From Procambarus clarkii (Eukaryota > Arthropoda > Malacostraca > Decapoda > Cambaridae), in assembly GCF_040958095.1 (NCBI RefSeq), contig NC_091181.1, positions 30,716,029-30,780,028 on the forward strand: DNA of 64,000 bases, written 5' to 3'. Positions 4,338 through 46,317 of the stretch are shown here, one piece after another. The notes beneath the pieces were generated by a model. The model was not told the DNA's origin, made no database searches, and saw only the letters and a list, made by a program, of their open reading frames with translations. The first letter of the stretch is position 1. The number at the start of each line of letters is the position of its first letter. A program made the translations under genes and the position numbers.

Positions 4338-4400
4338 CGATTGATTGATGAAAATTAAGCCACCCAAGAGGTGGCACGGGCATGAGTAGCCCGTAAATGG
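4338..4400 (-). mobile_element. Family B retroposon, fragment
   Basis: The tail and first hairpin of family B only (GATTGATTGATG, CCACCCAAGAGGTGGCACGG, AGCCCGTAA). The remainder is truncated. 4401-5015 shows no recognisable feature. Confidence 0.7.
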
Positions 4401-7886: not shown

Positions 7887-7969
7887 AGGAGAACTACGGG
7901 CTCACCATAGCCCGTGCTGCTTGGAACTTTTTGTTCCAAGTAGCAAATCTTAAACAAGAACAACAACAA
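7887..7969 (+). mobile_element. Short retroposon family C with TSD
   Basis: An 83-bp copy with TACGGGCTCACCATAGCCCG and an AACAACAAC tail. TSD CCACTGACAA at 7877-7886 and 7970-7979. It faces the copy at 7679-7769, so the two form an inverted pair about 120 bp apart. Confidence 0.85.
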
Positions 7970-8397: not shown

Positions 8398-8551
8398 ATT
8401 GATTGATGATTGATGATGATTAAGCCACCCAAAAGGTGGCACGGGCACCCGTAAGTGGTGGCCCTTTTGAGCCATTACCAGTATCAACAGATGATACTGG
8501 AGATCTGTGGAGGTGCGACTGCACCCTGCGTGACGGGAGATGTCTCCCGTG
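8398..8551 (-). mobile_element. Short retroposon family B with 11-bp TSD
   Basis: A nearly full-length 154-bp copy: tail ATTGATTGATGATT, hairpin CCACCC...GGTGGCACGGGC, a GATACTGGAGATCTGTGGAG block, and a terminal hairpin GACGGGAGATGTCTCCCGT. TSD AGCGTAGCAAG at 8387-8397 and 8552-8562. Confidence 0.87.
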
Positions 8552-10930: not shown

Positions 10931-11360
10931 GCTCACACCTCAAGCCTCCTTACTCACATATGTTCACCCCCAAGACGCTAAATCCTTTATACGTGATGGT
11001 TAAGAGCCAAACATGCAACCTGAGGCCAACAAGACCAACACGAGCACTCTTTGGCTGCTCCAGGACCCACCATGGACCCGCTTCAGAGGCCGAGCTATTA
11101 AGACAGCCTATGATCTTGTCAGATGACCCACCCAGATAGCCCCAGACCTCACCTGGTGTTGAGCAGGAGTCGCGAGGCGTCACACACTGGCAAGCTGCTC
11201 CTCACCGCCTCGCCATACCTGCCACCAGAAACGTACAATGTAAATATCTCGTCTCAAGTCATCACCTTTTACAAGACTTCAATAAGAAACATTTTGCCTT
11301 AAAACAATTTAATTAATAATTATTAATTAATTAATTAATCTAGTTATTTTATACTACCTC

Positions 11361-11440
11361 AAGTTCAAGTATGTTTATTGAGACAAGAAAGAAATACATC
11401 TCAAAGGGATAGAGTAGCTTAGGCTATCTCTACCCCCCTA
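11361..11440 (+). mobile_element. Ultra-short retroposon family D with 10-bp TSD
   Basis: An 80-bp element starting AAGTTCAAGTATGTTTATTG and ending CTATCTCTACCCCCCTA. TSD ATACTACCTC at 11351-11360 and 11441-11450. Its centre has a small hairpin (TAGCTTAGGCTA). The complementary strand contains CTCAATAAACATACTTGA, including an AATAAA. Confidence 0.88.
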
Positions 11441-11450
11441 ATACTACCTC

Positions 11451-15071: not shown

Positions 15072-15335
15072 GGGCCTCGTAGCCTGGTGGAGGGCCTCGT
15101 AGCCTGGTGGATAGCGCGCAGGACTCGTAATTCTTTGGCGCGGGTTCGATTCCCGCACGAGGCAGAAACAAATGGGCAAAGTTTCTTTCACCCTGAATGC
15201 CCCTGTTACCTAGCAGTAAATAGGTACCTGGGAGTTAGTCAGCTGTCACGGGCTGCTTCCTGGGGGTGGAGGCCTGGTCGAGGACCGGGCCGCGGGGACA
15301 CTAAAGCCCCGAAATCATCTCAAGATAGTATAGCA
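15072..15335 (+). mobile_element. tRNA-headed SINE family A
   Basis: The head at 15094-15163 folds as a tRNA: acceptor GCCTCGT with ACGAGGC, T-stem GCGGG with CCCGC around TTCGATT, and anticodon loop CTCGTAA (anticodon CGT, threonine-like). It is followed by the family body (AAATGGGCAAAGTTTCTTTC, CTAGCAGTAAATAGGTACC, CATCTCAAGATA). The first 20 bases are duplicated in tandem at 15074. It is a retroposed tRNA-derived SINE and not a tRNA gene. Confidence 0.88.
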
Positions 15336-21372: not shown

Positions 21373-21612
21373 ACAGTGAAGTACAGTCCTCGCACCGTAG
21401 TACAGTCTCAGCACCACACACCTGGCCACGCTAACATTAAATCTTTCAGTTCATTCGTGCCATTAATGCATAGAACTTGAAGGTCACTGTCATGAGACAA
21501 TGAGTGAATATTCCTTGTCTTTCTTTCATCGCCAACTCACTAAAGTTTCCTATCGGAAGGCTTCCAGCTTGTTTCCTCTCCACGTTGACCAAATTTGACT
21601 TCAGATTGTATT

Positions 21613-21761
21613 GATTGATGAAGATTAAGCCACCCAAAAGGTGGCACGGGCATGAATAGCCCGTAAGTGGTGGCCCTTTGGAGCCATTACCAGTATCATT
21701 AGCCGATACTGGAGATCTGTGGAGGTGCGATTGCACCCTGCGGAGAGGTCGTGACCCCTCT
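21613..21761 (-). mobile_element. Short retroposon family B with TSD
   Basis: A 149-bp copy including GATACTGGAGATCTGTGGAG and GTGCGATTGCACCCTGCGG. TSD CAGATTGTATT at 21602-21612 and CAGGTTGTATT at 21762-21772 (one mismatch). Confidence 0.82.
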
Positions 21762-25405: not shown

Positions 25406-25478
25406 TTACGGGCTCACCATAGCCCGTGCTACATGGATACTTCGTTCTAAGTAGCTAAATCTAAAACAACAACAACAA
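25406..25478 (+). mobile_element. Short retroposon family C with TSD
   Basis: A 73-bp copy starting TTACGGGCTCACCATAGCCC and ending in an AACAACAAC tail. TSD TCCACTGAGGA at 25395-25405 and 25479-25489. Confidence 0.86.
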
Positions 25479-26126: not shown

Positions 26127-26300
26127 AACATTTGGTCACTATTTGGCACGGGAGACATCTCCCGTCACGCAGGGTGCAGTCGCGCCTCTACAGATCTCCA
26201 GTATCATCTCTTGATACTGGTAATGGCTCAAAAGGGCCACCACTTACGGGCTATTCATGCCCGTGCTACCTCTTGGGTGGCTTAATCTTTATCAATCAAT
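26127..26300 (+). mobile_element. Short retroposon family B, longest copy, with 11-bp TSD
   Basis: 174 bp in sense orientation: a head AACATTTGGTCACTATTTGG absent from the other copies, then GGGAGACATCTCCC, GTGCAGTCGC, GATCTCCAGTATCA, TACGGGCTATTCATGCCCGT, GGGTGGCTTAATC and the tail ATCAATCAA. TSD TCATGTTCTGC at 26116-26126 and 26300-26310 (edges overlap by one base). Confidence 0.86.
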
Positions 26301-26339
26301 CATGTTCTGCCCTGGTCTACCTTGTAATTAAACCGTACG

Positions 26340-27735: not shown

Positions 27736-28355
27736 ACACACCAAAAAAACAGCAACTCTTAAACCTTTCACACAAGTCAAGAAACTGCATCACGACAAAA
27801 TAAACAGCTAACTAGTAGTCACAAGAATGCTTGCGCGCGCCAGCTCTCTCTCGTTCTCTCTCTTTTGCTCTCTCTAGCTCTCTCTCACAAGGCTCGCTGG
27901 CTGTCTCACAACAGAGAAACAAAATAGTGTAAATATGAATTTTGGAACAGAGCATGATGCCCGTTCATTGTACTTGTATACAAACGCACATCATCATAAT
28001 ATATCAATCCCCCAAAAAAACTGATAGCACACACCTAAACAATGGAGACCTAACACGATTTGGAGTGCGTCCACCATCCTGGCTGGCTTTAAGCGCAAAA
28101 AAAACTTACCTGTCAACTTACTTGCCTCCTTCAGGCTCTGAGCAAGCTACTAGCCCCCCCCCCCACTCCCTGTCTTTGCCCCAAGAGCCCTCCCCACTTC
28201 CCTCGGCAAGTAGACCCTCCGCCCCACCTCAGAGCTCATGCCATTCATGTGAGAATCTCCGGAATACCTTTATGGGGCTCTGGGAGTTGTTGGTCTCCCC
28301 GTGGCTGAGGAGACCTCGCTCCGTGCCTGGCCTCGGAGACCTCGGAGGAGCCTTT

Positions 28356-28472
28356 GATTGATTGATGAAGATTAAGCCACCCAAAAGGTGGCACGGGCAT
28401 GAATAGCCCGTAAATGGTGGCCCTTTTGAGCCATTACCAGTACCAAGAGCTGATACTGGAGATCTGTGGAGG
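28356..28472 (-). mobile_element. Short retroposon family B with 12-bp TSD
   Basis: A 117-bp copy. TSD GGAGGAGCCTTT at 28344-28355 and 28473-28484, perfect. It is 5-prime truncated within the GATCTGTGGAGG block. Confidence 0.88.
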
Positions 28473-28561
28473 GGAGGAGCCTTTTTAGAACAAGCAGATA
28501 AATACGAGCTGCCTCGTATGGAGACTATAGGCCTTCTGCAGTTTCCTTAATTAATGATCTT

Positions 28562-28643
28562 CAAGTTCAAGTAGGTTCATTGAGACAAGATAGAAATACA
28601 TCTCAAAGGTATAGAGTAGCTTAGGCTATTTCTACCCCCCTGT
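28562..28643 (+). mobile_element. Ultra-short retroposon family D with 12-bp TSD
   Basis: An 82-bp element starting CAAGTTCAAGTAGGTTCATT and ending TCTACCCCCCTGT. TSD ATTAATGATCTT at 28550-28561 and 28644-28655, perfect. Confidence 0.9.
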
Positions 28644-29069
28644 ATTAATGATCTTACTCTCCTAAAAGAGACGGATTCCTCCCCGCCTTTGGGTGCCCTT
28701 GACCTCAGGGATACCAACCTGCCTCATTGTCACCAAGCAGCCCCCCTGCATTCTGATGGCATCAAGATTCATGCCATCTGCTATTCTCGCCCGTAAAGTT
28801 TTAGGTTAGCGGAGGGCAACGAAACTTAGCACTAGCTAGTGGAAAAAAATAAGCGTATACCTGTATCATACTGAAATGCAAGTAGAATAATACTTGATTC
28901 ACAGGAACACCAACACGTCCTGGAGTCCCCAGGTGGGCAAAAGGACCTTATCCTGCACGTGATGTAATATGCATTCTCGTCCAACCTCAACACCATGGTT
29001 CAGGAATTTCAACGAGGCCGCACCTACCCATCCCAGGCCAGCACCCACCCGACTGCCAGACCAACTGAC

Positions 29070-29182
29070 CTTCTTGTTGTTGTTGATTTAGATTCAGCTA
29101 CTCGGAACAAAAGTTGCGAGTAGCACGGGCTATGGTGAGCCCGTAGTGGACTTAACCGGCACAGGAGCGAGGCCGTAAGTGG
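29070..29182 (-). mobile_element. Short retroposon family C with TSD
   Basis: TSD CCAACTGAC at 29061-29069 and 29183-29191. Tail-derived TTCTTGTTGTTGTTG lies at the left, GCACAGGAGCGAGG at the right. Confidence 0.84.
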
Positions 29183-30989: not shown

Positions 30990-31505
30990 TGGTCCGGAGC
31001 TACTTTCCCGAATTTGTCTTAATTGTTCCTTGAACACGTCCACTTTTGTCCAGGCAATTTTTCTTATGATTGATGGGAGGATATTGAATAGCGTAGACCT
31101 CTGATGTCCCTACAGTGTTCTCCGAGTGTAACTATGGCACCCTAGGGGGGGGTAGAAATAGCCTAAGCTACTCTATCCCTTTGAGATGTATTTATTGCTT
31201 ATCTCAATAAACATACTTGAATGGCACCCCTAACGGGTTTATTCTGAGTTTCCTAACATATCTTTCACTCCAGTCTGTTATGATTTTGCTGTGTGACTAC
31301 GGCTTCCAGCGTCTTTGATGCTGATATATGATGCCTCTCCTGTCTCATATTTAAAGCTTTGAAACATTTCCAGTTGGTTAGGTGTAAAATCGGGTCTGAG
31401 TACCGTATGTAATTTCTGAAATAAGAGGGAATACAGAGCTCTCTCCTGCTTTGAAAGGGGGAATCGAGTATCAAACTCAAGGGGGAGAACCATAATTGTT
31501 TAAAA
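30990..31505 (-). pseudogene. LINE ORF2 relic, split by a family D insertion
   Basis: Reversed sequence related to 26340-26640 (GATATTGAATAGCGTAGACC, CTCTGATGTCCCTACAGTGT), extended upstream to a region with LESTQSYLFQKLH-like codons but many stops. A family D element sits within it at 31143-31220. Confidence 0.6.
31143..31220 (-). mobile_element. Ultra-short retroposon family D with 9-bp TSD, nested in a LINE
   Basis: A 78-bp reversed copy: TAGGGGGGGGTAGAAATAGC at the left and CTCAATAAACATACTTGA at the right. TSD ATGGCACCC at 31134-31142 and 31221-31229, perfect, so the pre-insertion LINE sequence is evident. Confidence 0.9.
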
Positions 31506-31709
31506 TAGTAGAAGCATTGTGGTACAATATTTGGATTTGGCGGTCGTAATCCCTCCCATCACGACTGTGAGGAAGTCGTCCTGGCAGGGAGTACAGCAGC
31601 AAGGTTCCCACCGCCTGTGTGACGCTCTCGAGGTCGGCACACCTCACCCACGCCCACCACCTCACACCAGCCACGCCCACATAAATACACACCAGCCACG
31701 CCAAGCCCC

Positions 31710-31802
31710 GCTCCTGTGCCAGGTAAGTCCACTACGGGCTCACCATAGCCCGTGCTACTTGGAACTTTTTTGTTCCCAGTGGCTGAATCTATAACAACAA
31801 CC
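31710..31802 (+). mobile_element. Short retroposon family C
   Basis: GCTCCTGTGCCAGGTAAGTC, CACTACGGGCTCACCATAGC and the tail CTATAACAACAACC. It lies within a CCACGCCC-rich local repeat, so the TSD is uncertain. Confidence 0.8.
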
Positions 31803-32704
31803 ACGCCCACCGCCTCACACCAGCCACGCCCACATAATACCAATACTCCAGGCTAATATCAGCTCTCTTACAAAGCTTAATATTTATTACCAACAAGTGG
31901 GATAATTTTAGAGAAACTCCGTCATGCGAAGGGTAACCTTCTACGCCTTGCAGCTGCATAGTATTTGTTTAATGTACAAGTCTTACATGCAACATCATGC
32001 ACTTGGAGCTCATTATATCTAGTCGCAGTCGTAATTGTTTCTTCGCTGCCGGTAAATATCTTCAAGATCCCAGCAACCTTGCTACCAATGTATCTTGGCG
32101 GTACTTAATTGATTATTGGCAACAAGTTTATGCTCTTAGCACTACTACTTAAACAATTGTAGTGAGCAGGATATTTCCTCGATCATAACCCTACCAGCTT
32201 GACACACGCCGGTTCCAGGCCTACCTTGACTACCTTGGGGGCCGCCTATTGCATGATCTAGGAGCACAAAGGTATCAAAACGATACTCACGGTAATCTTC
32301 CTACCAGTTTTTTACCAACCAGATTAATACACTTTGTAGTAGAATGTCAGATGACGGCGGAGAGCTCTGACGCCTTCAGACAACCGTCATGGGTCTAATG
32401 ACACGAGTCTAATGTATGACATTTGGGTCTGTTACGGGAGAGTTAATGTTGATCTGTAACATTTTGATGAAAGACAGCGGGTGGTGGACACCTGCCACCC
32501 CGGACGCCACACACACACGTGGCAAGCAGCTGGGTGTGTAACAGGAGGGGAACCATCCTTGTGTGACTAACCTTGTAGAGTGGGCTGGTCCGGAAGTCAC
32601 AGATAATTAAGCAGCCAACTTTACCCACCGTCACAACCACGGTATCTTACCGGGCCAGCCTGTCATACCCCCACAACCCCACCCACAATACACCCATCCA
32701 CAAC

Positions 32705-33670: not shown

Positions 33671-34449
33671 CAGATATAGAAATCGGTTTCAATAATTTAG
33701 ATGTTTTATAGAAAAGATTAAAGCAGTAAAGGATCTTTACACGCTCTCCAGGTCAGATTTGAATAGGGGTATTATTATGCAACAATATTCAACCTTAGAG
33801 AGCACTAGCGTCTTGAAAAGTATCATCACTGGTACGGCATCTTGTTGGAAAGGTTCCTGTTATCCAACCTGTCTCTTGTCTTGCAGTTGTGACAGCTACT
33901 TTATGGTGTTCTTTAAAGATAAGGTCTTCCGGCATGATTTATCCTTTACAGTGCTTTTTTACTTCTAGTGTGATTTGACTTTTATACATGGTTTCCGTTT
34001 TCATATTTTCGTTTTTACCAAGCGTAGGGGCTGGAACGAATCTTCATTAATCATATTATAATCTGTGGCCCATTGAAAGACTTGTTAAACATCAGATTGG
34101 AGGTTTGCTGTGTCTTCTATATTGTCTACTCGCATGAAAATCGTAGCTCCACCTGACCCAGATACTAGCACTAACAGCTTCAGTCTGGGTTCTTGGTAAT
34201 GTGTACGGCTGCGGTAGTTAACACCAAGACTGCTCGTGAAGGCTGGGGGCGAGTAATGAAGTACTGACAGACATCACCAGCATGTTCTGCTGCACCAGGC
34301 TACCTCCACTCTCTCTCCTGCCGCTCCCAGGTTTTTTATTACTCTTTTTTGCCCGTGTTACCGTTAGGCGGGAGCGACAGGCCGGCCACTGTCAATAATT
34401 ACAGATGTTTAGGCCTTGTAGATGTGTAGGTATGTATGGAGGGGGGGGG
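33671..34449. other. No gene recognised
   Basis: AT-rich with a GC-richer stretch just before the 46-bp array. No conserved frame. Confidence 0.45.
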
Positions 34450-37002
34450 GAAGAGTACCTGGAGGTACAGCAGTGTGGGGGTACACCCCAGGGCGGGAGA
34501 GTACCTGGAGGTGCAGCAGTGTGGGGGTTCAGCCCAGGGCGGGAGAGTACCTGGAGGTACAGCAGTGTGGGGGTTCAGCCCAGGGCGGGAGAGTACCTGG
34601 AGGTACAGCAGTGTGGGGGTTCAGCCCAGGGCGGGAGAGTACCTGGAGGTACAGCAGTGTGGGGGTTCAGCCCAGGGCGGGAGAGTACCTGGAGGTACAG
34701 CAGTGTGGGGGTACAGCCCAGGGCGGGAGAGTACCTGGAGGTACAGCAGTGTGGGGGTACAGCCCAGGGCGGGAGAGTACCTGGAGGTACAGCAGTGTGG
34801 GGGTTCAGCCCAGGGCGGGAGAGTACCTGGAGGTACAGCAGTGTGGGGGTACAGCCCAGGGCGGGAGGTACCAGGGGGGAGAGTACCTGGAGGTACAGCA
34901 GTGTGGGGGTTCAGCCCAGGGCGGGAGAGTACCTGGAGGTACAGCAGTGTGGGGGTACAGCCCAGGGCGGGAGAGTACCTGGAGGTACAGCAGTGTGGGG
35001 GTACAGCCCAGGGCGGGAGAGTACCTGGAGGTACAGCAGTGTGGGGGTTCAGCCCAGGGCGGGAGAGTACCTGGAGGTACAGCAGTGTGGGGGTACAGCC
35101 CAGGGCGGGAGAGTACCTGGAGGTACAGCAGTGTGGGGGTTCAGCCCAGGGCGGGAGAGTACCTGGAGGTACAGCAGTGTGGGGGTACAGCCCAGGGCGG
35201 GAGAGTACCTGGAGGTACAGCAGTGTGGGGGTACAGCCCAGGGCGGGAGAGTACCTGGAGGTACAGCAGTGTGGGGGTTCAGCCCAGGGCGGGAGAGTAC
35301 CTGGAGGTACAGCAGTGTGGGGGTACAGCCCAGGGCGGGAGAGTACCTGGAGGTACAGCAGTGTGGGGGTACAGCCCAGGGCGGGAGAGTACCTGGAGGT
35401 ACAGCAGTGTGGGGGTTCAGCCCAGGGCGGGAGAGTACCTGGAGGTACAGCAGTGTGGGGGTACAGCCCAGGGCGGGAGAGTACCTGGAGGTACAGCAGT
35501 GTGGGGGTACAGCCCAGGGCGGGAGAGTACCTGGAGGTACAGCAGTGTGGGGGTACAGCCCAGGGCGGGAGAGTACCTGGAGGTACAGCAGTGTGGGGGT
35601 ACAGCCCAGGGCGGGAGAGTACCTGGAGGTACAGCAGTGTGGGGGTACAGCCCAGGGCGGGAGAGTACCTGGAGGTACAGCAGTGTGGGGGTACAGCCCA
35701 GGGCGGGAGAGTACCTGGAGGTACAGCAGTGTGGGGGTACAGCCCAGGGCGGGAGAGTACCTGGAGGTACAGCAGTGTGGGGGTACAGCCCAGGGCGGGA
35801 GAGTACCTGGAGGTACAGCAGTGTGGGGGTACAGCCCAGGGCGGGAGAGTACCTGGAGGTACAGCAGTGTGGGGGTACAGCCCAGGGCGGGAGAGTACCT
35901 GGAGGTACAGCAGTGTGGGGGTACAGCCCAGGGCGGGAGAGTACCTGGAGGTACAGCAGTGTGGGGGTTCAGCCCAGGGCGGGAGAGTACCTGGAGGTAC
36001 AGCAGTGTGGGGGTTCAGCCCAGGGCGGGAGAGTACCTGGAGGTACAGCAGTGTGGGGGTTCAGCCCAGGGCGGGAGAGTACCTGGAGGTACAGCAGTGT
36101 GGGGGTTCAGCCCAGGGCGGGAGAGTACCTGGAGGTACAGCAGTGTGGGGGTACAGCCCAGGGCGGGAGAGTACCTGGAGGTACAGCAGTGTGGGGGTAC
36201 AGCCCAGGGCGGGAGAGTACCTGGAGGTACAGCAGTGTGGGGGTACAGCCCAGGGCAGGAGAGTACCTGGAGGTACAGCAGTGTGGGGGTACAGCCCAGG
36301 GCGGGAGAGTACCTGGAGGTACAGCAGTGTGGGGGTACAGCCCAGGGCGGGAGAGTACCTGGAGGTACAGCAGTGTGGGGGTTCAGCCCAGGGCGGGAGA
36401 GTACCTGGAGGTACAGCAGTGTGGGGGTACAGCCCAGGGCGGGAGAGTACCTGGAGGTACAGCAGTGTGGAGGTTCAGCCAAGGACGGGAGAGTACCTGG
36501 AGGTACAGCAGTGTGGGGGTACAGCCCAGGGCGGGAGAGTACCTGGAGGTACAGCAGTGTGGGGGTTCAGCCCAGGGCGGGAGAGTACCTGGAGGTACAG
36601 CAGTGTGGGGGTACAGCCCAGGGCGGGAGAGTACCTGGAGGTACAGCAGTGTGGGGGTACAGCCCAGGGCGGGAGAGTACCTGGAGGTACAGCAGTGTGG
36701 GGGTACAGCCCAGGGCGGGAGAGTACCTGGAGGTACAGCAGTGTGGGGGTACAGCCCAGGGCGGGAGAGTACCTGGAGGTACAGCAGTGTGGGGGTACAG
36801 CCCAGGGCGGGAGAGTACCTGGAGGTACAGCAGTGTGGGGGTACAGCCCAGGGCGGGAGAGTACCTGGAGGTACAGCAGTGTGGGGGTTCAGCCCAGGGC
36901 GGGAGAGTACCTGGAGGTACAGCAGTGTGGGGGTACAGCCCAGGGCGGGAGAGTACCTGGAGGTACAGCAGTGTGGGGGTACAGCCCAGGGCGGGAGAGT
37001 AC
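34450..37002. repeat. 46-bp minisatellite, about 55 copies (2.55 kb)
   Basis: The unit is GAGTACCTGGAGGTACAGCA, GTGTGGGGGTACAGCCCAGG, GCGGGA, with a recurrent A/T alternative (GGGGGTACAG or GGGGGTTCAG). One disturbed junction lies near 34866-34880 and a few private changes near 36257 and 36470-36485. The unit has no stop in any forward frame, so frames of about 870-900 codons are open in all three phases at once (three units = 46 codons). Codon phase is not preserved, so this is non-coding satellite DNA. Confidence 0.96.
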
Positions 37003-37559
37003 CTTCCTGGTCAACACTGGCCTTGAGCCCGCTCCCGCACCTGGCCACCGCTGCCGCCTTCCTCACCAGCTTCCTGTCTTGCCAACTCACCCAAAGTCCT
37101 AACTATAGTCTTCGCTATAAAAGATAGTCGCTAGAATCTATAAAACAACTGACCCTCTCGATATTAGACAAAGAATAATCTCGATATAATGCGACAGTGG
37201 TTTAGCTAGACCAATAAACTCTGGGAAAGTTGAGGTGTAAAGCATGGGTTGGTAACCGCTACGGCGTTGACCAGGTGACGTTGGTAACCCCTACACTGTC
37301 TCACCCCCGTGGCCCGTCATCTACACCATTTACTGAAGTACACCATAATACCAACATGCCTCCAGACTATATGCCTCACATATATTGCCAGAAATAATCA
37401 CTCACAATCAATCAATCAATATCTCTCTCACACACACTCACTCTCCATCTTCACAATTGAGATAAAAGAAAATACATTAAGATAATAAAGAAAGAGGGGC
37501 GGTACAGCTATCTCTTATCAAGATAACTTCACTTGCACCAGTGTCATCGGTGATAGAGA

Positions 37560-43088: not shown

Positions 43089-43327
43089 GGGCCTCGTAGC
43101 CTGGTGGATAGCGCGCAGGACTCGTAATTCTGTGGCGCGGGTTCGATTCCCGCACGAGGCAGAAACAAATGGGCAAAGTTTCTTTCACCCTGAATGCCCC
43201 TGTTACCTAGCAGTAAATAGGTACCTGGAAGTTAAGTCAGCTGTCACGGGCTGCTTCCTGGGGGTGGAGGCCTGGTCGAGGACCGGGCCGCGGGGACACT
43301 AAAGCCCCGAAATCATCTCAAGATAAC
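43089..43327 (+). mobile_element. tRNA-headed SINE family A
   Basis: tRNA-like head at 43091-43160: GCCTCGT/ACGAGGC acceptor, CAGGA/TTCTG anticodon stem with loop CTCGTAA (anticodon CGT), and a perfect T-arm. It continues into the shared body and ends CATCTCAAGATAACC. The head-to-body continuity and the near-identical copy at 15.1 kb make this a SINE, not a tRNA gene. Confidence 0.9.
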
Positions 43328-43794
43328 CTCCCTTTCCCTAACCTCAAGATTGTGTATGATCCTCTGTCCTGTGTGACAGTGAATACCAGCATTATCCTCA
43401 ACTAACAAGACCTAATTGAATCACTCAGATTACGCAAAACTCTAATGAACGTTTGTCAATAAAGATAATAATAACTACCCCCCCCCCCTCTCCCTCCCAC
43501 AGGATGGGTATAGCCTTCACTACCGCCCACAAGATGAATATTGGAGGTGCATAATAAATGAGGGAAACAAGTGCGAACGAGAGACTACTGTGGGTGTAGT
43601 GATGTGCAGGAGGCGCCCTCCTCCAGGACCAGCCCGAGGACTGTGGTGGTGTCATCAAGGAGGAAATGGCCACACATCCGGGGGTGAAGAGGTGGTGTTC
43701 CGGCCTCGGCACCGGACGGCGGCCACTGATCCAAGCTGTCTACACCGAGCTGCTCCTCACGCCTACTGCCTGGCCGGTCGCCCTTCATAATTAA

Positions 43795-44015: not shown

Positions 44016-44244
44016 ACTGGTAACGGTCCCAGCCTTGCCACAAGCTTCCACTCTTGCTCAAGAAATAAGAATATTAACATAGTTTAATGTGTCACCGCAC
44101 TAATATAATTAGGAGTAGAGTATGGTACACCCGCTTGAGGCTATACTTATACTAACGTCCTTCAAACTACGAGACCCTCCACCTTGAAAACGGTAACCGA
44201 TTTAAATTTTGCCCCGAGGGACGAGTTTATTGGGCAGCGCCACT

Positions 44245-44343
44245 GTTATAGATTCAGCTACTGGGAACAAAAAGTTGCAAGTAGCACGGGCTATGGTGAG
44301 CCCGTAGTGGACTTACCTGGCACAGGAGCGGGGTTATAACTCA
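44245..44343 (-). mobile_element. Short retroposon family C with 10-bp TSD
   Basis: A 99-bp copy. TSD CAGCGCCACT at 44235-44244 and 44344-44353, perfect. Confidence 0.88.
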
Positions 44344-45400: not shown

Positions 45401-45669
45401 TATATAGCAGAAAGGGAGGGGGGGGGGGGGAAGAAAAGGGGGCGAGGAGAAATTTTTTATGAGGATAAACTGGCTATTTATTGTCCTAGGCGCAAATTGA
45501 GACCAGCTGATCATAACGCTTCCCCCCCCCCCCCTCCTCCTCCTCTTCACAGATACGAACACCGCAAAAACGATCATCGCTCCCCCCCCCCCCCCACACA
45601 CACACACACGAAGGCCGCTCACACCTACGAAAGGTCCTATACACTAATCATCTCCAAACCGCGATGGGT

Positions 45670-45743
45670 TCAAGTACGTTTATCGAGACCACAAAATACA
45701 TCTCAAAAGGATAGCTTAGCTTAGGCTATTTCTACCCTCCACT
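45670..45743 (+). mobile_element. Ultra-short retroposon family D with 9-bp TSD
   Basis: A 74-bp, somewhat diverged copy: TCAAGTACGTTTATCGAGAC at the left, GGCTATTTCTACCCTCCACT at the right. TSD GCGATGGGT at 45661-45669 and 45744-45752. Confidence 0.87.
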
Positions 45744-46317
45744 GCGATGGGTAACTCTAGAAGCTCTGGGGAGCATAACTCTAACTCTCACAATAACATT
45801 ACCGCATACTTTTGATGTCTGGGTTAAATCTTTGTGCACTTTCAATGGCACGTGTGTTTTGTTCGGAATGTAAATATTTGCCGTAGTCACGAATGTTATC
45901 CCCGACGACATATAACACAGAATGTACTCGTGACAAAGAATATAAACACAGAAAAACGAGAGAACAAAATCTATGATCAATTATAAATTTGTTCAGGAGA
46001 ATACCGGACAGGTCCTCTAGCCTCCAATATACCAGTCACCATCCAATACCACTCAGGCTAGGTGGTGGTGCTGATCACAACTGTATATTATAAATAATAA
46101 TATATATTACACACACACACACACACCTTAGTGTGGCGATCCAGAGAGGAAATGCTCACTACATACATGGTTCTTGCCCGCCATCTGAGGAGCTGGAGGA
46201 ACTCTGCAACCTGTGACAAGTAGCCTTGTACCCTGCATGTAACCAATGTTGTAACCCTTTTTGTGTAATTACATTTTGAAATAAAGTGAGTTATATATGT
46301 ACACACACAAAAAAAAA

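Follow-up and report, generated by a model that had tools for sequence, protein, structure and literature searches.

An abundant 80-bp hairpin repeat of the crayfish genome is most likely the 3' terminus of a LINE

Introduction

What kind of element is a hairpin-bearing repeat of about 80 bp that has no visible promoter and sits between perfect direct repeats? Four such copies, of a family named D, had been predicted in a 64,000-nucleotide stretch of the genome of the crayfish Procambarus clarkii (NC_091181.1, positions 30,716,029 to 30,780,028; this whole stretch is called the window in what follows), together with the proposal that D is a minimal retroposon of a small structured RNA. Were most genomic copies to extend into a longer common element, D would be only the end of a SINE or LINE. 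That LINEs and short elements share hairpin-bearing 3' ends is established (PMC3747384, excerpt). Here, we follow D through the crayfish genome (4.03 Gb in 2308 contigs were searched) and propose a likely origin for this abundant 80-bp repeat. D is most likely the terminus of a LINE and not a retroposed small RNA, because it exists in a long form and because it matches the LINE of a sister family, E, both at the end of the open reading frame (ORF) and in the hairpin unit.

Results

Inspection of the sequence and BLAST within the window confirmed the four predicted copies of D, and both arms of the 9-12 bp direct repeats (TSDs) proved exact around each of them (Table 1). No further full copy was found in the window by BLAST, three of the copies used as queries recovering only the fourth. 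The TSDs of D are far beyond chance. When the two flanks of the same genomic copy were compared, the longest exact string shared upstream and downstream was 8 nt or longer in 21 of the 36 copies, a sample found mainly by similarity, biased toward copy 2 and containing two duplicate pairs; when flanks of different D copies were paired as a control, this length was reached in 12 of 701. In copy 2, two extra G and ACA separate the hairpin H1 from the TSD. A near-identical twin of this copy (L002, C32:30846887) lies about 102 kb away with identical flanks and an identical TSD, and copy 2 was therefore duplicated together with its surroundings.

Table 1. Copies of D in the window, with their TSDs and the H1 hairpin of copy 2
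Feature	Position	Strand	Remarks
D copy 1	11361..11440	- (RNA sense)	one mismatch against the common D sequence; AATAAA intact
TSD of D copy 1, ATACTACCTC	arms 11351-11360 / 11441-11450		exact
D copy 2 (the element originally noted)	28562..28643	-	AATGAA replaces AATAAA; tail CTTGAACTTG runs into the TSD
TSD of D copy 2, ATTAATGATCTT	arms 28550-28561 / 28644-28655		exact
Hairpin H1 of D copy 2, RNA sense GGGGTAGAAATAGCCTAAGCTACTCTATACC	28608..28638	-	12-bp stem in the common form, one pair broken in copy 2
D copy 3	31143..31220	+	second-hairpin variant ATTGCTTATCTC, found in long (LINE-attached) copies too
TSD of D copy 3, ATGGCACCC	arms 31134-31142 / 31221-31229		exact
D copy 4	45670..45743	-	most diverged of the four; second hairpin with a deletion; H1 still folds
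TSD of D copy 4, GCGATGGGT	arms 45661-45669 / 45744-45752		exact

Read in the RNA sense, D opens with an optional 1-3 nt and a run of G (usually 6, range 3 to 21), followed by H1, which has 12 pairs and the loop CTAA; next come a second hairpin, then CTCAATAAAC or a variant of it, and the tail ACTTGAA(CTTGAA)n, which leads into the TSD; there are one to three CTTGAA units in the aligned copies and more in others. The small TAGC/GCTA hairpin that had been placed in the middle of the element does exist as a stem, but it is the inner part of the 12-bp hairpin at the 5' end of the RNA. The AATAAA seen near the other end is intact in copies 1 and 3 (CTCAATAAACATACTTGA), whereas copy 2 has AATGAA and copy 4 GATAAA. 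The common form of D folds at -21.8 kcal/mol (z = -2.4, with 3 of 200 shuffles equally good), and H1 was kept as the best fold in three of the four D sequences folded; in a diverged copy (L022, 8629-8701) the best fold is without the outer H1 stem and has the inner stem only (z = -0.8).

As had been supposed, no tRNA-like promoter region was found in D, the two matches that ARAGORN and Rfam gave in the window overlapping none of the copies. No Rfam family reached its gathering score on the D unit, and a permissive scan of one other copy (L016) gave nothing on the unit, its sole match (13.4 bits, gathering 45) falling outside. A parental small-RNA gene, which the original prediction had led one to expect, found no match in these Rfam searches of the window and of copy L016. 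An HDV-like or hammerhead ribozyme identity was also considered and was set aside on paper only.

An internal 21-mer of D, CTATCCCTTTGAGATGTATTT, has 6,167 exact matches in the genome and its control has 0. Twenty copies were fetched from the start of this match list, their 5' ends being ignored in the choice. In 14 of the 20 (nine distinct copies after the merging of duplicates), H1 is preceded by long upstream sequence such as TTTGTACTCACTGAATTTGTGCGCCCCTTGAGGGACTTGAAGTAGAGG; five are bare and one is cut by the fetch coordinates. A second listing, which gave 100 of 3,462 D matches, held long upstream sequence in 48 by rule and in about 46 after two false ones were dropped. The other matches listed, about 54 of 100, have no LINE sequence upstream and therefore begin no more than about 15 nt from H1, in most cases at the G-run, and 51 distinct 15-mers stand upstream of them; the proportion of long to bare copies is only approximate, because the search pattern bars A at its first place. 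Some 165 nt upstream of H1 lies coherent sequence common to 29 of 30 D matches. D thus holds as a discrete short element for about half of the listed copies, which are bare with a near-constant 5' end; the rest extend upstream, and the extension of copies into a longer common element, which the prediction had itself named as evidence against its reading of D, is largely what we see. The long upstream is absent from all four window copies, a 130-nt probe having zero matches in the window.

The unfiltered 21-mer sample overturned a reading in which D has no long form. D had seemed free-standing in similarity searches mostly through ascertainment, since the query was a short copy and the patterns demanded particular bases before H1; indeed, patterns with foreign bases before H1 or with AGGGGGG returned mostly unrelated upstreams. 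The earlier lists already held long copies, namely L021:9768 (one of 36), five of 100 (upstream TTGAAGTAG) and at least two of 71.

Long copies also have TSDs of their own, of 13 bp in L073 and 11 bp in L074/L076. Among flank-string controls for long and bare D, some of which may pair duplicated loci, strings of at least 11 nt occurred in 2 of 112 and of 13 nt in none, those of at least 10 nt in 6 of 112 and those of at least 8 nt in 21 of 112; since controls reach 8 nt so often, shorter flank strings around long D were not counted. The 5' ends that can be placed among the nine distinct long copies lie about 49 (L084), 78 (L073) and 81 (L074, with L076) nt upstream of H1. D therefore has the features of a LINE end, that is, a 3' end common to long copies with varied truncation points and TSDs. 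Both variants of the second hairpin are present in long and in short copies.

The one element other than D that ends in a D tail (L031) was examined as a template switch, and this was rejected: a tRNA-type SINE has inserted inside a D copy, the 5' part of which is present on the other side of the SINE. Searching for a partner LINE by its tail alone, as (ACTTGAA)x3 after other bases, was equally unrewarding, nearly all of the 61 matches being longer D-type tails. Three short D patterns had zero exact matches in viral contigs, and a single 19-mer match in a bacterial contig was judged to be chance. At L020:4959-5111 two inverted D copies meet head to head; the second seems to have landed at the 5' end of the first. 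D-hairpin matches are clustered and locally tandem at C86:19580126-19713137 (G000), with spacings such as 42, 84 and 85 bp; this cluster is probably a satellite grown from the D unit.

Weaker matches to D led to the sister family E, which has the unit AACGGGGTGAGAATAGCTTGAGCTACCTCATCCC..., the tail (TTTCAA)n and, for a filtered pattern, 478 exact matches in the genome. Ten E copies were chosen for an upstream resembling CTGAAC or CTGAAT; five of these (L036-L040) have a common longer upstream with differing truncation points and five are bare. For E, a pattern taken from about 90 nt before H1 has 2,089 matches, and farther upstream the sequence is mostly coherent among the 100 listed. In 23 E regions fetched from this list, the sequence in common with L057 is between 110 and about 800 nt long and ragged at its 5' side; by alignment to L057, 8 of 22 regions match over at least 700 nt and 14 of 22 over 110-493 nt. 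Upstream of E, L069 has Exo_endo_phos (2.7e-9), RVT_1 (1.6e-39) and RNase_H (1.1e-12) domains, which lie in two overlapping frames that were scanned apart, and L068 has RVT_1 (2e-13) and RNase_H (2.4e-12). These endonuclease (EN), RT and RNase H frames thus identify E as the 3' terminus of a LINE that has these domains. EN, RT and RNase H together mark the I-type group of LINEs, and an APE-type endonuclease with RT and RNase H in one element was found for the E-LINE, not for D. The E unit also folds better than any of 200 shuffles (z = -2.8).

The long form of D matches the E-LINE at the end of the ORF, where 0 of 1000 shuffles are as good, and the D and E hairpin units match one another with 0 of 500 shuffles as good; across the whole part upstream of the unit the match is less clear (5 of 500), similarity being weak outside the ORF end and the hairpin. 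Comparison of the 3' end of D with those of resident LINEs, which had been advised at the outset, has thus given a positive answer, and the suggestion that D bears a LINE-like 3' recognition tail is borne out.

For H1, 24 distinct D and E sequences of equal length were compared without gaps. Paired cells amount to 93.8%, against 34-45% in six slid versions used as controls. Cells changed on both sides number 19 (shuffle mean 6.3), a value reached by 0 of 500 shuffles, and the covariation score is 0.219 (shuffle mean 0.134), which is reached by 0 of 500 shuffles and 0 of 6 slid versions; by two of the five measures, the number of pairs with two-sided changes (238 of 500) and the number of pair types (443 of 500), H1 does no better than shuffles. 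Most of the signal comes from three adjacent pairs, which are A-U, G-C and A-U in D and G-C, A-U and G-C in E. Since the covariation rests mainly on this one D/E contrast, it may represent a single evolutionary event, and only the outer stem is fairly tested because the selecting expression fixes the inner stem region. The comparison suggests that a 12-bp RNA hairpin may have been kept by compensatory changes in the two sister families, perhaps in one event. A similar hairpin design, e.g. GGGGGATGGAAATAGCCTCGGCTACCATCC, occurs in a tRNA-like SINE (L017:2620-2660) and in a satellite (L028, an array of period 259), with E-values of 0.007-0.3, and the hairpin domain may be older than D and E.

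Discussion

In our view, D is very probably the hairpin-and-tail unit at the 3' terminus of a LINE family with EN, RT and RNase H, copied by target-primed reverse transcription and often ending near the base of H1. The 3' unit in common, the long form, the TSDs, the ragged truncation, the covariation of the stem and the EN, RT and RNase H domains of the E-LINE all back this explanation. The LINE of D itself presumably carries the same enzyme as the E-LINE, the D side contributing ORF-end homology only, and this enzyme would read the hairpins of D and E. It would recognise H1, the H2 region and the short-repeat tail of D RNA, prime at the nicked target and copy the RNA from its tail. Very often, copying would break off at the 5' base of H1 or close to it and leave a bare insertion of 75-82 bp with TSDs; in other cases it would run on, giving ragged ends in the 3' UTR of the LINE or beyond. 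The minimal retroposon originally predicted thus survives as a retroposed unit with TSDs, but its origin in a small structured RNA does not, a LINE terminus being most likely.

The position of the 5' end is of particular interest. Many copies in both D and E, including the four window copies, break off at the 5' base of H1 or close by, and about half of the listed D ends fall at this one narrow site; among the five bare D copies of the fetched sample, only two have a flank string of at least 10 nt (L070, 11; L089, 10). We infer that this end is set by premature termination or release of the RT at the hairpin base. It is also possible, though rather less probable, that the end is fixed in the RNA, in a variant of the last step in which the template is the 3' part of the LINE RNA from the base of H1 onwards, left by a nuclease cut or by an exonuclease stalled by H1. 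There is no obvious reason for RT to stop once past the hairpin, and a pre-cut RNA would fit the start of D mostly at an (A)G-run and the near-constant start of E about 3 nt outside the stem, where exactly three bases before GGGG match the LINE in 47 of 81 distinct starts among the matches listed. However, this E spike comes from a listing whose pattern barred T at -8 and G at -1, and because of this it is not a full distribution. Early ending of RT at the hairpin base seems somewhat more likely than a pre-cut RNA.

Short D could, in principle, be an independent and self-propagating tail-only SINE, an RNA of about 80 nt that is transcribed or processed on its own and borrows the LINE enzyme via the common tail; we regard this as unlikely. 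The many listed D copies without LINE upstream and the variety of their upstream 15-mers speak for it, as do the long G-runs common to copies with AATGAAC and, in E, the T that precedes the AAC/AAT start in 33 of 58 distinct listed starts (33 of 52 once most rows with a longer LINE match are left out), G, the base of the LINE, standing there in 12. However, the T at the junction or the G-run may reflect the choice of target or slippage of the RT, LINE-attached D copies (L075, L079-L081) have long G-runs too, and short copies share their second-hairpin variants with LINE-attached ones; nor did ARAGORN or Rfam in the window, or Rfam in L016, find a promoter-bearing tRNA or a known small-RNA family on the D unit. 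A long G-run was seen in 5 of 7 bare D copies with AATGAAC and in 1 of 32 among all other standalone rows (p = 2e-4; with window copy 2 added to its twin, 5 of 8 and p = 5e-4), in a biased sample from which L074 and L076, being of the long form, were removed and in which duplicated loci were merged. The combination looks inherited and not remade at each insertion, and it hints that some bare copies descend from one source, either a bare copy or a LINE subfamily that has this combination. It is a doubtful but conceivable extension that bare D forms a promoterless, tail-only retroposon lineage (hairpins, AATAAA-type signal and repeat tail) which rides in host transcripts; its 3' end would then be set by the polyadenylation signal, and the 5' end would be set by the hairpin. 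Finally, an origin of D by retroposition of a gene for a small structured RNA, with no relation to a LINE, is highly improbable. The discrete ends and TSDs of the window copies might suggest it, as might the first impression that 0 of 36 similarity-found copies were extended (only L021:9768 later proved long). The long form of 14 of the 20 fetched copies largely refutes it, and the homology of the D unit and ORF end to the RT-bearing LINE of E and the failure to find an Rfam match on the D unit in the window and in L016 also speak against it.

Taken as a LINE terminus, D can be set beside several known systems. It is like the stringent SINE/LINE pairs (eel SINEs with UnaL2, and plant L1-type pairs) in its stem-loop 3' tail, terminal repeats and compensatory stem changes (PMC3747384, excerpt). 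The SINEs of such pairs usually begin with a head of tRNA, 5S or 7SL type that bears a pol III promoter, whereas D is headless: it has a 3' tail in common with a partner LINE, RT being seen only in the sister E, and no head was found on it. A platypus retroposon derived from a snoRNA is likewise short and without an internal pol III promoter (PMC3747384, excerpt); D differs in having no snoRNA or small-RNA match in the Rfam searches of the window and L016 and in its apparent derivation from a LINE. The E-LINE resembles I-type LINEs in its EN, RVT_1 and RNase_H domains and in its repeat tail, (TTTCAA)n, an assignment made by domain content only; the I element has a tail of TAA repeats (PMC3747384, excerpt). 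With ordinary 5'-truncated LINE copies D shares a common 3' end, a variable 5' end and TSDs, but such copies spread their ends out, whereas about half of the listed D copies end at or near the hairpin base.

What appears to be new is the bare headless unit, which makes up about half of the listed copies and has a near-fixed 5' end in two sister families. No description of such a unit was found in the titles and abstract openings of the open-access literature searched, and a text search of papers did not find the D and E sequence strings; repeat catalogues may well already list the D family, under LINEs or among unclassified repeats. H1, apparently kept by compensatory changes in D and E, also marks where insertions stop in about half of the listed D copies. 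D and E together offer a testable system for studying how a LINE enzyme recognises its RNA terminus, and how a SINE could arise from a bare LINE tail. They also carry a caution, as a similarity search with a short query can make the end of a LINE look like a free-standing element.

Other repeats of the window deserve mention. Another short hairpin retroposon, with an (AAC)n tail in the RNA sense, lies at 44244-44340, 31704-31804, 29074-29178, 7893-7969 and 25406-25478; its copies have two alternative starts, at about CTACGGGCTCACC and, farther out, near CAGCCCCGCTCC, which seem to coincide with hairpin boundaries, and direct repeats surround several of the copies. A family with several hairpins and an (ATCA)n tail (RNA sense) is found at 28354-28472, 8401-8551, 26147-26302, 4339-4400 and 21604-21742 and also has, by eye, a few preferred 5' ends. 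At 15094-15327 and 43089-43330, a tRNA-Thr-like head, called tRNA by both ARAGORN and Rfam, leads into a SINE ending in CTCAAGATA. Finally, positions 34445-37004 hold a 2.6-kb array of a 46-bp repeat with 97-98% matches, which is open in several frames.
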